A stretch of 64,000 nucleotides of DNA from Synergistaceae bacterium (GTDB taxonomy: Bacteria > Synergistota > Synergistia > Synergistales > Aminobacteriaceae). Numbering within the stretch: position 1 is the first letter of the stretch; the number at the start of each line of letters is the position of its first letter. The position numbers and the translations under genes are program-made. The notes beneath the pieces are model-generated. The model saw only the letters and a program-made list of their open reading frames with translations, had not been told where the DNA came from and made no database searches. Positions 53,572-57,918 of this stretch are shown one piece after another. The DNA is taken from positions 1 to 64,000 of the forward strand of contig JAIRYN010000017.1 in assembly GCA_031267575.1 (NCBI GenBank). The letters are read 5' to 3'.

Positions 53572-55452
53572 ATGTTTCATGATCGTTACGATATCGTCGT
53601 CATTGGCGGCGGACACGCGGGATGCGAGGCGGCCTTAGCGGCCTCCCGGATGGGTTGCCACACCCTTTTGCTAAACCTCAACCTGGATAATACGGCGTTG
53701 ATGCCGTGCAACCCGGCCATCGGTGGGCCCGCCAAAGGTCACCTAGTACGGGAAATCAGCGCTCTGGGGGGCGAACAAGCCCGAGCTACCGACGCTTCCA
53801 CGTTGATGGTCCGATGGCTGAACACGTCGAAGGGTGTGGCGGTCCGCGCTTTGAGGGCTCAATGTGACCTTAAGGCTTACGCCGCCTATTACTTAAGACT
53901 CCTGCAAACTCAAGAGAACTTGGATATTCACCAGGACGAGGCGACGGAACTGCTACTGACCGATTTTCGAGTGGCAGGGGTGAGAACTCGCCACGGATCC
54001 ACTTATGAGGCCAAGGCGGTGATTCTCTGTTCGGGAACCTACGCCTGTGGCCACGTTCATGTTGGAGACGTGTCGTTTCCCTCGGGACCTATGGGGCAGA
54101 CGCCGGCCAACGCCTTTTTCGAGTCCTTGCCGAGCCTGGGAATACGGACAGACCGCATGAGGACGGACACTACTCCTCGCTTGAACTTCGATACTATCGA
54201 CCTTTCCCAGACGCGGCGACAGCGATCAGAGGAAATACCCTTAGCTTTTGACCTTTGGGGAGAGAAGCGCCTTTACGACACTGCCGATTTCGCTTGCTAT
54301 TTTTCCCACACCACGCCTGAGACCCACGCCATCGTCGCGGCCAATATTCACCGGTCACCCTTGGTCACGGGAGAAATAGAGACTCTTGGACCGCGTTACT
54401 GCCCCTCTGTGGAGGACAAGTTTTTGAAGTTTCCTGACCGAGATGTTCACCCCATCGTCTTCGAGCCTCTTGGAGGCCCGGGCGGCACGAAAGAGGTCTA
54501 CATCCAAAACTTCTCCACAGGTTTGCCCTATGATGTGCAGGAAGCCATGATTCGATCCCTTCCTGGGTGTCGGAACGTCAAAATTCTCAAGCCTGGTTAT
54601 GCTATTGAATATGTGTATCTTAATCCTGATCAACTTTCACCTACGCTAGAGAATAAAACAATAAAGGGTTTTTTTTGCGCCGGCCAGGTTAATGGAACTT
54701 CGGGCTATGAGGAAGCCGCAGGTCAAGGGCTATTGGCCGGGATCAACGCCGCCCTTGGAATCAAGGAAGAAGAACCGGTGGTTTTGAGTCGAAGTGATGG
54801 TTATTTAGGGGTTTTGGTGGATGACCTGACCACAAAGAGCACAAACGAGCCTTACCGTATGTTGACCAGTCGTTGTGAGCATCGGCTTTTGTTGCGATGG
54901 GATAACGCAGATCGTCGTTTGTCCCCTATCGGGCGACGCGTGGGGCTTATCGACGATGTCCAATGGGAAGAGCTGGTACGCCGCTGGGAGAGAGCGGACA
55001 GTGAGATTGAGCGTCTGAAATCCATGCGCCTGGCTCCTACAAAGGAAATAAACCGGGAATTGGAGAAGGCCGAAATCGAACCTCTGGTTGAACACACAAC
55101 CCTCGCCGCTTTACTCCGCAGAGGCAACGTCAGCTACAGTCTGATCGAATCCCTATCCCCGCCTGAGATTCTTCTCGAAGAAGAGGAAGCCTTCCACGTG
55201 GATACTGAACTGCGTTATGCCGGCTACATCGAAAAGCAGGAGCGTATGGCCTCTCGTATGAAAGACATGGACAAGGTTTTAATTCCTGATGGGTTTGACT
55301 ATGATGAAATCAAGGGAATGTTGGCGGAGAGCCGCCAAAAGCTGTCGCGCTTTCGCCCGCGCTCCTTGGGCCAGGCGTTGCGCATTTCGGGTGTGACGCC
55401 CTCGGACGTGCAACTGTTGGCTGTCTCGATTAAAACCAGGCACCGCGGGTAA
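53572..55452 (+). CDS. mnmG: tRNA uridine-5-carboxymethylaminomethyl synthesis enzyme MnmG (GidA)
   Basis: 626 residues. FAD-binding VIGGGHAGCEAALAASRMG, then PCNPAIGGPAKGHLVREISA, and GTSGYEEAAGQGLLAGINA are diagnostic, with a helical C-terminal domain binding MnmE. It modifies wobble uridine 34 of tRNAs. GAGGTG before the ATG. Downstream of its stop are three repeats of an 11-bp AAATGAGGGCG-type unit. Confidence 0.97.
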   Translation: MFHDRYDIVVIGGGHAGCEAALAASRMGCHTLLLNLNLDNTALMPCNPAIGGPAKGHLVREISALGGEQARATDASTLMVRWLNTSKGVAVRALRAQCDLKAYAAYYLRLLQTQENLDIHQDEATELLLTDFRVAGVRTRHGSTYEAKAVILCSGTYACGHVHVGDVSFPSGPMGQTPANAFFESLPSLGIRTDRMRTDTTPRLNFDTIDLSQTRRQRSEEIPLAFDLWGEKRLYDTADFACYFSHTTPETHAIVAANIHRSPLVTGEIETLGPRYCPSVEDKFLKFPDRDVHPIVFEPLGGPGGTKEVYIQNFSTGLPYDVQEAMIRSLPGCRNVKILKPGYAIEYVYLNPDQLSPTLENKTIKGFFCAGQVNGTSGYEEAAGQGLLAGINAALGIKEEEPVVLSRSDGYLGVLVDDLTTKSTNEPYRMLTSRCEHRLLLRWDNADRRLSPIGRRVGLIDDVQWEELVRRWERADSEIERLKSMRLAPTKEINRELEKAEIEPLVEHTTLAALLRRGNVSYSLIESLSPPEILLEEEEAFHVDTELRYAGYIEKQERMASRMKDMDKVLIPDGFDYDEIKGMLAESRQKLSRFRPRSLGQALRISGVTPSDVQLLAVSIKTRHRG

Positions 55453-55509
55453 CGTGGGTAAAATGAGGGCGAAATGAGGGCGAAATAAGGGCGATGGGAG
55501 GAAATAGCG

Positions 55510-56004
55510 ATGCGCGAGGAACGTAACGGGAAAACACGGTTAGTAGCGGATGTGTTGAGCCAAGTGATGCCGCCTCAGTATCCCCTTCGGGAGACGTTGA
55601 GGAAAGTTGTTATGGAATGGTGCAGTGTCGTTGGAGAGGTTCTGGGCAATCACTCCGTTCCGTTGGATATCATTGGAGAAGAGCTTCTTGTGGCGACGGA
55701 AACGCCTTTGATAGCCAGCCGTTTATCCATGATGGGAGGCAATGTAACCCGTGTCCTGGCGGAAAAATGGGGTTTAAAAGTGAAAAAGATAAAGGTCACC
55801 GTCGGGCGGCTTCCTTTAAAAAACTTGAGGACGCTTGGGAGCCGCTCCTCGCGCCCCTTTCTTGTCGAAGTTAGCGAGGATGAGGTGGCGGAGCTTGAGC
55901 GAGATTATCTACAAAGATTTCCTGATCTTCCCGAAGATGTCGCTCTATCTTTGGCGCGTCTTCAGGCCTTTTTTACGAAACGCTTCAGTAAAGGGCGTCA
56001 ATAA
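55510..56004 (+). CDS. DUF721 (DciA-like) protein
   Basis: 164 residues. LRKVVMEWCSVVGEVLGNHS and EELLVATETPLIASRLSMMG are the core of DUF721. DciA, a member of this family, loads the DnaB helicase where DnaC/DnaI are absent. Placed 57 bp after mnmG in the origin region, a replication role is plausible. GGGAGG before the ATG. Confidence 0.85.
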   Translation: MREERNGKTRLVADVLSQVMPPQYPLRETLRKVVMEWCSVVGEVLGNHSVPLDIIGEELLVATETPLIASRLSMMGGNVTRVLAEKWGLKVKKIKVTVGRLPLKNLRTLGSRSSRPFLVEVSEDEVAELERDYLQRFPDLPEDVALSLARLQAFFTKRFSKGRQ

Positions 56005-56016
56005 GGAAAGATTGGT

Positions 56017-57918
56017 ATGGGGAAAAAAAACGGATTTAAAAAGAATACCCATCGAAGTGGTTTTAAAAACATAACCGATAGTGATAGGAATATCATAACG
56101 ATAAATGACGCTTTATTTGATTATTTCGATATGGAATCTGATATGGAATCTGATTTAGAACCGGTTAAGAAAACAGAACTATATTTTAAGGAAAATCCTT
56201 CGTCTCAAAAGCAGAAACTCGGAAAGCCGAAAAAAAATCTAAACCCGGTAGCGAAAACAATACCAATTGAGAGAGATTTTTTTGGGGGGAGCTTCTCAGA
56301 AGGGCTTTTAGGGAAGGAATTCATCGCTTCCAAGGAATCCGAGGAATCCATTACGGAGGGTTTTGCCTTGGAGGATTTTATTAAAGAAACCCCTGTTCTG
56401 GAAAATTTTTTATTGGTACTGGATAAAAAGAAAATGGATAAAAAGAAATTGGATGAAAAGAAATTGGATGAAGAACATTTTGGAGAAAGCGGACCAAAAT
56501 CTGAAGAAGAAAAAGGAGAAGAAGAATCTATCGCGCTTGCGGGGGAAAAACTTGTTAGATCGGAAAAATTAAAAGAAGGGCCTTTAGATGAACTTTCAGG
56601 AAAACCCTTAGGTATTTCCGTCCTGGAGGAGATTTTCGAGAAAGGGCCTCTCTCTAACGAAGCGTCAGCACCCAGCACGGAACATGTAGAAGAACCTTCG
56701 GATACTCTCGACTTGATTGACGCTCCTGCTGAAGAGTCCGAGAGTCGTCAGGTTTTCGACACTCCACAATCGGAGAACGCGCACGCCTCCAAAGAGCTTT
56801 TTGCGGATGGGATTTACGACCCTACTGAGTTTACCTCTATAGAAGCGATGGGATCGCTAAAGGGTTTCGCGCCTCTGGGGATGCTTTTTATTCTAATGGA
56901 CATCTTTAGCGGAAAAGAGGAGGGATTGATCCGTGTCAATCGCCTCGCGAGTGCCATCAAGATTGGTAAGCCCGCGATGCTCACCCAGCTGGACCATCTG
57001 GAACAGGCAGGGCTGATTCGCACTGTGTCCAGCTCTCAAAGAGGGCGGCATGTGGAACTTTTGGTCCCAAATCCCATAACCGGCGGACAACCTGAAGAAG
57101 TTCCTCAAGAAACGGACCCGACCCAGATTTTGAATACTCTCCCCTCGGACGCGCCCAAAAATTTCAGCCTCGAAAAGCTGAAAATGCTGCAAAAATATTT
57201 GATGGTACGCGGCATCCGGCTGCTTTCCCTGCCAGACGAGTCGGCTTTGGACCCGCGCTTGTCCCAAATCGCCGCCTTTCTGGGCAGGTACTTGACTTAT
57301 GTTCAGCTCTTTTATTCCCGCCTCAAAGGAACGCTGCACACCGCTGAGGAAATCCATTTCTCCCTGCAGGGCTTTCAGGGGCGCGACGTTACCTATACCC
57401 TGACCTTCTGCAAAATGTTGAAGGAAGTCGGCTTTTTGGCGCATTTCACCTACCGACGGTCGCCTCATTACAAAATCGTCGCTCGGCTCAAGCGCACTTC
57501 GCCAGCGATTAACTTCTTGTCCGGCGGCTGGTTGGAGCATCATATCCGCGACAGAGTGGTGGCAATCCTAACTACGCACCCCTCTACCTTGGAGACGCCC
57601 TATGCTTTCATGAAAAATCCCAAGATCATCCTGCCAGGAAATGAAAATTTCGAGTTTGATTTTCTGCTGATGGTCGCCGACAAGGTCTTTTGGATCGAGG
57701 CAAAGACGGGGGAGTACATGGATTACATCGCCAAGTACGCCCGCGTCTCCAAACTGCTGGGGCTCACTCGGAACAGCTCCCTTTTGGTTCTCGTGAATAC
57801 TCCAAAACCGGACGTCAATATATCGGCGCGCTATGGACTTTCCTGTTGCAGCGTGGATGAGTTTCCAGAGGTCTTTCGCCTCGCTCTGATTCGCGAACTA
57901 GGTCGTTCAAAGCGGTAA
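56017..57918 (+). CDS. Winged-helix protein with C-terminal DUF1887-type PD-(D/E)XK nuclease domain
   Basis: 633 residues, 12 bp after the DUF721 gene. Residues 1-280 are low-complexity, rich in E, K and S, with tandem repeats (ESDMESDLE; KKKMDKKKLDEKKLDE). A MarR/GntR-like winged helix follows (about 290-348: LIRVNRLASAIKIGKPAMLT then QLDHLEQAGLIRTV), a second possible one (about 445-490), and the C-terminal nuclease part: LSGGWLEHHIRDRVVA, then FDFLLMVADKVFWIEAKTGE, where D, E and K form the active site. This C-terminal block resembles DUF1887 of Card1/Can2, but no CARF domain is seen. Function unknown. Confidence 0.72.
   Translation: MGKKNGFKKNTHRSGFKNITDSDRNIITINDALFDYFDMESDMESDLEPVKKTELYFKENPSSQKQKLGKPKKNLNPVAKTIPIERDFFGGSFSEGLLGKEFIASKESEESITEGFALEDFIKETPVLENFLLVLDKKKMDKKKLDEKKLDEEHFGESGPKSEEEKGEEESIALAGEKLVRSEKLKEGPLDELSGKPLGISVLEEIFEKGPLSNEASAPSTEHVEEPSDTLDLIDAPAEESESRQVFDTPQSENAHASKELFADGIYDPTEFTSIEAMGSLKGFAPLGMLFILMDIFSGKEEGLIRVNRLASAIKIGKPAMLTQLDHLEQAGLIRTVSSSQRGRHVELLVPNPITGGQPEEVPQETDPTQILNTLPSDAPKNFSLEKLKMLQKYLMVRGIRLLSLPDESALDPRLSQIAAFLGRYLTYVQLFYSRLKGTLHTAEEIHFSLQGFQGRDVTYTLTFCKMLKEVGFLAHFTYRRSPHYKIVARLKRTSPAINFLSGGWLEHHIRDRVVAILTTHPSTLETPYAFMKNPKIILPGNENFEFDFLLMVADKVFWIEAKTGEYMDYIAKYARVSKLLGLTRNSSLLVLVNTPKPDVNISARYGLSCCSVDEFPEVFRLALIRELGRSKR

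Follow-up and report, generated by a model that had tools for sequence, protein, structure and literature searches.

Nucleases with a CARF domain are familiar as effectors under the control of cyclic oligoadenylate, and a gene that retains the nuclease half of such an enzyme without the CARF sensor raises the question of what directs the enzyme instead. Here, this question is addressed for P0001, a protein of 633 amino acids encoded in a 64,000-nucleotide stretch (the window; positions 1 to 64,000 of contig JAIRYN010000017.1, assembly GCA_031267575.1) from a Synergistaceae bacterium. P0001 very probably combines a nuclease of the Can2 type with a winged helix (wH1) in the place of CARF. More tentatively, such a nuclease may have been rewired to DNA-sequence sensing by taking wH1 and a site-carrying 5' coding region from a ParA-linked replicon-maintenance gene, which would make it self-contained, with recognition sites in its own gene.

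A Can2-type nuclease with a complete active site

The initial annotation had likened the C-terminal half of P0001 to the DUF1887 nucleases Card1 and Can2 on the basis of three motifs (LSGGWLEHHIRDRV, FEFDFLL and WIEAKTGEY). All three are present, and the likeness proved to be above chance. The PADLOC CARF_PDDEXK models matched P0001 with an E value of 5e-8 and all 12 of the 12 long family members scanned (best value, 1.9e-10), and a search by sequence with the family profile recovered 1xmx (VC1899) at 1.6e-4 and 7bdv (Can2) at 2.8e-3. Sensitive searching thus found the proposed match to DUF1887, although the Pfam family Card1_endonuc (PF09002) taken alone remains below its cut-off for single sequences (E = 0.016 for P0001). 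Nothing was found when PF09002 was used as a genome-wide probe, the profile being too weak for the P0001 branch.

A model of the 259-residue core, derived from 20 family members, was obtained with a predicted local distance difference test (pLDDT) score of 91.3 and a predicted template modelling (pTM) score of 0.87. In Foldseek comparisons this core matched Cdn1 (query TM-score, TMq, 0.68; E 9.6e-11), VC1899 (0.60; E 2.1e-10) and Can2 (0.61; E 4.5e-8), and each of the 19 Protein Data Bank (PDB) matches with E<1e-3 was to one of these three proteins. Residues E507, E546, D548, E561 and K563 are invariant across the 20 members, down to 31% identity. In Can2, E276 and D278 of the NELD motif have been shown to be catalytic (PMC7969007). 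Given that the acidic and lysine positions of GGWLE, ExD and ExK are invariant in all 20 members, the active site is not degenerate. Sequence and model together place the C-terminal half among the PD-(D/E)XK nucleases of the VC1899/Can2/Card1 kind, its active site being complete.

Can2/Card1, Cdn1 and VC1899 (DUF1887, PF09002) share with P0001 a wH2-like motif followed by PD-(D/E)XK, in the same order and with the same active-site motifs. They differ in that P0001 lacks CARF and the positions that contact cyclic tetra-adenylate (cA4), carries wH1 and mostly a long disordered region instead, and belongs to a genome without CRISPR. No Cas1 was detected in that genome, nor any true Cas10; the only matches to Cas10 models are of GGDEF type, the one above the cut-off being read as a GGDEF protein and a second, partial match (C34) being of a sort seen with GGDEF proteins. 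The neighbours of P0001 are likewise unrelated to CRISPR.

A winged helix in the place of CARF

The absence of a CARF domain, as first annotated, was borne out. No CARF family was found at a meaningful score among the Pfam or NCBIfam matches of P0001, and the PADLOC CARF-nuclease profiles align with the family only from position 119-142 or later, near the end of CARF. The residues of SthCan2 that contact cA4 (S19, T42, K99 and Y118; PMC7969007) have no counterpart in P0001, the alignment starting beyond them. The last part of the CARF region in the PADLOC PDLC01880 profile (start 120-142) is matched by an alpha/beta unit at residues ~385-404 of P0001. Upstream of this unit, AlphaFold2 models a winged helix at ~285-349, where weak MarR-type Pfam matches also fall.

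It had been proposed that one or two winged helices replace CARF. Two are present, but only the first is a replacement: because Can2 and VC1899 carry an extra helical motif of their own at the position of the second (wH2), wH2 is not an addition. Only wH1 is foreign to the Can2 layout, and it takes the place of CARF. P0001 can also be set beside the orphan CARF-wHTH-REase layout (wHTH, winged helix-turn-helix; REase, restriction endonuclease) known outside CRISPR from VC1899; it has the wHTH-REase part without CARF. Coordinates are collected in Table 1.

Table 1. Features of the P0001 gene (window positions) and of related loci (locus:positions)
Feature	Position	Strand	Basis
Gene of P0001 (633 amino acids)	56017..57918	+	Open reading frame; intact or near-intact in 19 genomes of the same family; core dN/dS 0.06-0.17
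Shine-Dalgarno-like AAGGA, overlapping the dciA stop codon	56003..56007	+	Sequence read directly
Coding region of disordered charged N-terminus, ~1-270; homologues carry ACCGGT arrays	56017..56826	+	Sequence comparison
Sole perfect WACCGGTW site of the window gene (gaACCGGTta)	56158..56167	.	Motif search
wH1 (residues ~285-349), winged helix of MarR/CodY type replacing CARF	56869..57063	+	AlphaFold2 model; weak Pfam MarR; hhalign 97.7%
Alpha/beta unit before wH2, residues ~385-404, possible CARF stump	57169..57228	+	Model; PADLOC PDLC01880 alignment; inference
wH2, residues ~413-491, position of the Can2/VC1899 extra helical motif	57253..57489	+	Model; Foldseek; motif description (PMC7969007)
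PD-(D/E)XK nuclease domain, residues ~495-632	57499..57912	+	Profiles; model; Foldseek
E507 of GGWLE, invariant helix glutamate	57535..57537	+	Family alignment
E546-F-D548, aligned with NELD of Can2	57652..57660	+	Alignment; Can2 catalytic pair E276/D278 (PMC7969007)
E561-A-K563, ExK motif	57697..57705	+	Family alignment; profile search
Rare wH1-related proteins, 459-520 amino acids	L067:3083-4459, L068:4897-6456, L069:866-2323	all -	Three genomes
Compact members	L061:381-1376, L063:362-1366, L064:5736-6740	+, -, +	
FolC fusions	L060:3946-6552, L059:4821-6557	+, -	

The fold of wH1 is that of the MarR and CodY winged helices; it differs from them in being fused to a nuclease and in having no ligand-sensing domain. 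Its resemblance to these DNA-binding domains would also suit a transcription factor in which the nuclease domain has fallen out of use, but with every catalytic residue invariant in the 20 members, even at 31% identity, this explanation is very improbable.

Relatives of wH1 were found in three rare proteins, L067-L069, whose winged helix is homologous to it (hhalign 97.7%, E 2.2e-12). Two of them, L067 and L069, are encoded directly after a ParA gene. These ParA-adjacent proteins have repeat-encoded asparagine- and lysine-rich segments, and the coding repeats are dense in L067 and L069 (SENTTYSEN; IASNKNL around GCTAGC). Within the L069 repeats the GCTAGC palindrome occurs 8 times, as against 1.4 in permuted codons. 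L067-L069 may represent a new type of adaptor for partition or replication whose gene contains its DNA sites; we infer that role solely from the ParA neighbour. No RepA_N domain (PF06970) was found among the Pfam matches of P0001 or L067-L069, and the ParA-adjacent protein was not present in the plasmid collection searched. In the genome of the window itself, a frame of 60 amino acids (G000:C43:14245-14358, minus strand) matches the C-terminal part of this family and is an apparent remnant.

Palindromic sites in the 5' coding region

The N-terminus of P0001 (~1-270) is of low complexity, rich in glutamate, lysine and serine, and variable between homologues, in keeping with the long disordered acidic segment first described. 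At the DNA level, 30 ACCGGT sites were counted in the N-terminal coding regions of the genes for 14 long homologues, of which 12 carry at least one. Codon permutation (2000 trials) gave a mean of 12.4 sites and a maximum of 24; codons sampled from the C-terminal half gave a mean of 6.3 and a maximum of 15. In 13 genes whose C-terminal halves were checked, no ACCGGT was found there. An extended form of the motif has nine matches genome-wide in 26 genomes, eight of them inside a gene of the P0001 family, and none in G080, G089, G092 and G101, the genomes checked for members with a different wH1 recognition helix. A genome-wide repeat was considered as the source of the array and rejected for the extended motif, which is nearly private to the gene. 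Bare 8-mer pairs do occur elsewhere, at a low rate.

Seven genes translate the hexamer in frame 2, giving E-P-V or something close to it, and five in frame 0, giving T-G-I/N or something close to it; this use of different frames points to a constraint on the DNA. The ACCGGT palindromes have the appearance of DNA sites placed within the gene. Recognition of ACCGGT by the protein is predicted, with chances for and against it about equal.

An explanation at the peptide level would make P0001 an orphan effector like VC1899, its nuclease switched on by a partner or signal acting through the disordered N-terminus, with the EPV and TGI repeats serving as peptide motifs and not as DNA sites. Disordered tails often bind partners, and EPV does recur at the protein level within one group. 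VC1899 is itself an orphan relative of Can2 that lies outside CRISPR and showed little activity in vitro (PMC7969007). Against this, one and the same DNA hexamer yields different peptides in two frames, and the tail is absent in the compact and FolC-fused members described below, so that this explanation appears improbable.

Conservation and distribution

Homologues of the last 360 residues of P0001 were found in 12 of 61 sampled genomes, including that of the window; one of these copies, in G036, is decayed. Across 188 Synergistota genomes, 19 have intact or near-intact copies, all in one family, and two more (G036 and G115) have decayed ones. A scan of genome contigs added a single record, L015, from a Synergistaceae metagenome-assembled genome and apparently the same contig as G003:C177. 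Profile matches with E<1e-3 in G019, G063, G064, G103, G107 and G114 are CodY-like proteins and were left uncounted. Protein searches of viral contigs, phages and plasmids yielded no relative.

The ratio of nonsynonymous to synonymous substitution rates (dN/dS) of the core is 0.06-0.17, indicating strong purifying selection. Core identity to the homologues in G003, G011, G012 and G013 is 57-70%, where the MnmG proteins of these four genomes give 64-75%. Such housekeeping-level conservation keeps alive the main rival explanation, a chromosomal maintenance or repair nuclease that wH1 brings to DNA ends or to a small number of sites on the chromosome, with ACCGGT serving autoregulation only and without any role against mobile elements. 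That the similarity ranking of the family tracks the host genomes, and that in most genomes the homologue is a single gene without defence neighbours, also fits such an enzyme. Its patchy occurrence does not, nor do the two decayed copies, the Mrr-type restriction gene adjoining the compact members and the near absence of the extended motif from the rest of the chromosome; on balance, a maintenance role is somewhat unlikely.

A proposed sequence-directed nuclease

On the reading favoured here, P0001 would be a CRISPR-independent nuclease directed by DNA sequence that arose by domain swapping, a proposal for which the case is evenly balanced and in which competing replicons or mobile elements would be the likeliest target. 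The CARF second-messenger sensor would have been exchanged for the DNA-sequence-binding wH1, related to the helix of the ParA-adjacent repeat-carrying proteins. Most likely, wH1 would dimerise on ACCGGT-type palindromes, its DNA binding thereby supplying both the dimerisation and the targeting, as cA4-bound CARF does in Can2. The nuclease would then nick or cut DNA near ACCGGT-type sites, and the sites in its own 5' coding region could keep expression low or store the enzyme. We infer each of these steps, from the recognition of ACCGGT through dimerisation and cleavage to autoregulation and the anti-element role.

The closest parallel in logic, though not in homology, is Odn, the origin-directed nuclease of phage ICP1, in which a GIY-YIG-type nuclease with a borrowed RepA_N-type DNA-binding domain cuts the matching PLE origin (PMC8263062). 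In both cases a nuclease is joined to a DNA-binding domain that recurs in another protein, of maintenance or replication type in the case of Odn and putatively so for the ParA-adjacent relatives of wH1, and the targets of P0001 would most likely be competing replicons or mobile elements with matching arrays of sites, as PLE origins are for Odn. Odn differs in being a phage GIY-YIG enzyme with RepA_N and proven origin cleavage, whereas P0001 is a chromosomal PD-(D/E)XK protein with ACCGGT sites in its own gene. Sites of this placement have a precedent in pSK41 Rep, a RepA_N initiator and winged-helix protein whose Rep boxes lie inside its own gene and encode the linker (PMC5703833); here too the candidate sites fall within the gene of a winged-helix protein, in a linker-encoding stretch. 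RepA_N initiators differ from P0001, which has no RepA_N sequence match and no primase-binding domain and carries a nuclease instead.

Several observations weigh against a sequence-directed, anti-element nuclease. Only a single perfect site is left in the window gene, and the near-matches at 56074 and 56244 are no more than chance would give. Tandem duplication can raise the number of sites within a gene while also keeping the codons, and in the frame-2 group alone ACCGGT is no top hexamer (rank 28). The search for a target in viruses, phages and plasmids found none: a pattern scan of viral sequences gave only 15 single matches, and the phage and plasmid protein searches gave none. Conservation near the level of MnmG is high for a defence gene, and binding to its own gene would put a nuclease at risk of self-cleavage. 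An anti-replicon role is thus put forward as a possibility, with the balance somewhat against it.

A conserved family in which the nuclease is kept and the sensor exchanged would mean that outside CRISPR the effector half is open to redirection, and the family offers a direct test of sequence targeting for Can2-type nucleases. Candidate DNA sites in the coding sequence would also explain the disordered, repetitive look of the tail.

Architectural variants

Three members of genus g17 are compact proteins of 332-335 amino acids that start at wH1. In two g17 genomes, wH1-wH2-nuclease is fused in frame behind the C-terminus of a FolC-type Mur-ligase protein, giving a protein of 869 amino acids; in L059 the contig ends within the copy. 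Because these compact and FolC-fused members have no tail, the long N-terminus is dispensable for the nuclease as such. Both forms have a different wH1 recognition helix. The compact members adjoin an Mrr_cat (type IV restriction-like) gene, with genes for cobU, znuABC and UDP-galactopyranose mutase nearby, and the decayed copies in G036 and G115 lie within the same neighbourhood.

Genomic location

The open reading frame begins with ATG 12 bp after a DciA-like gene, as initially annotated, and the upstream gene is indeed DciA/DUF721 (Pfam DciA, E=2.3e-10). Its ribosome-binding site, AAGGA, overlaps the stop codon of dciA, which suggests that the two genes are transcribed together in the window genome. 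The initial annotation had further linked P0001 to a replication-origin cluster and had raised the conservation of the order mnmG-DUF721-nuclease. Of 19 relative loci examined, most show the mnmG-dciA adjacency (window 53572-56004), but the nuclease gene is not part of it: the gene that follows differs among relatives, whose nuclease gene is elsewhere or absent, and only in the window genome does the nuclease directly follow dciA, its neighbours changing with each genus. A replication-linked gene cluster was accordingly rejected. Given that the oriC/dciA location is not conserved, the replication link is unsupported, and the oriC neighbourhood is incidental to the window genome.

The relatives in which mnmG-dciA adjacency mostly recurs span an order-level sample, while DciA is quick to diverge, with 30-50% identity where MnmG has 64-76%.

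A Card1-like PD-(D/E)XK domain was also observed near the C-terminus of large g17 proteins (L072, L074, L075 and L085; open frames of 991-1404 amino acids), which are candidate defence genes. In L074 and L085 the gene of the large protein is followed by a TIR-like-repeat gene, and in L075 by an ankyrin-repeat gene.
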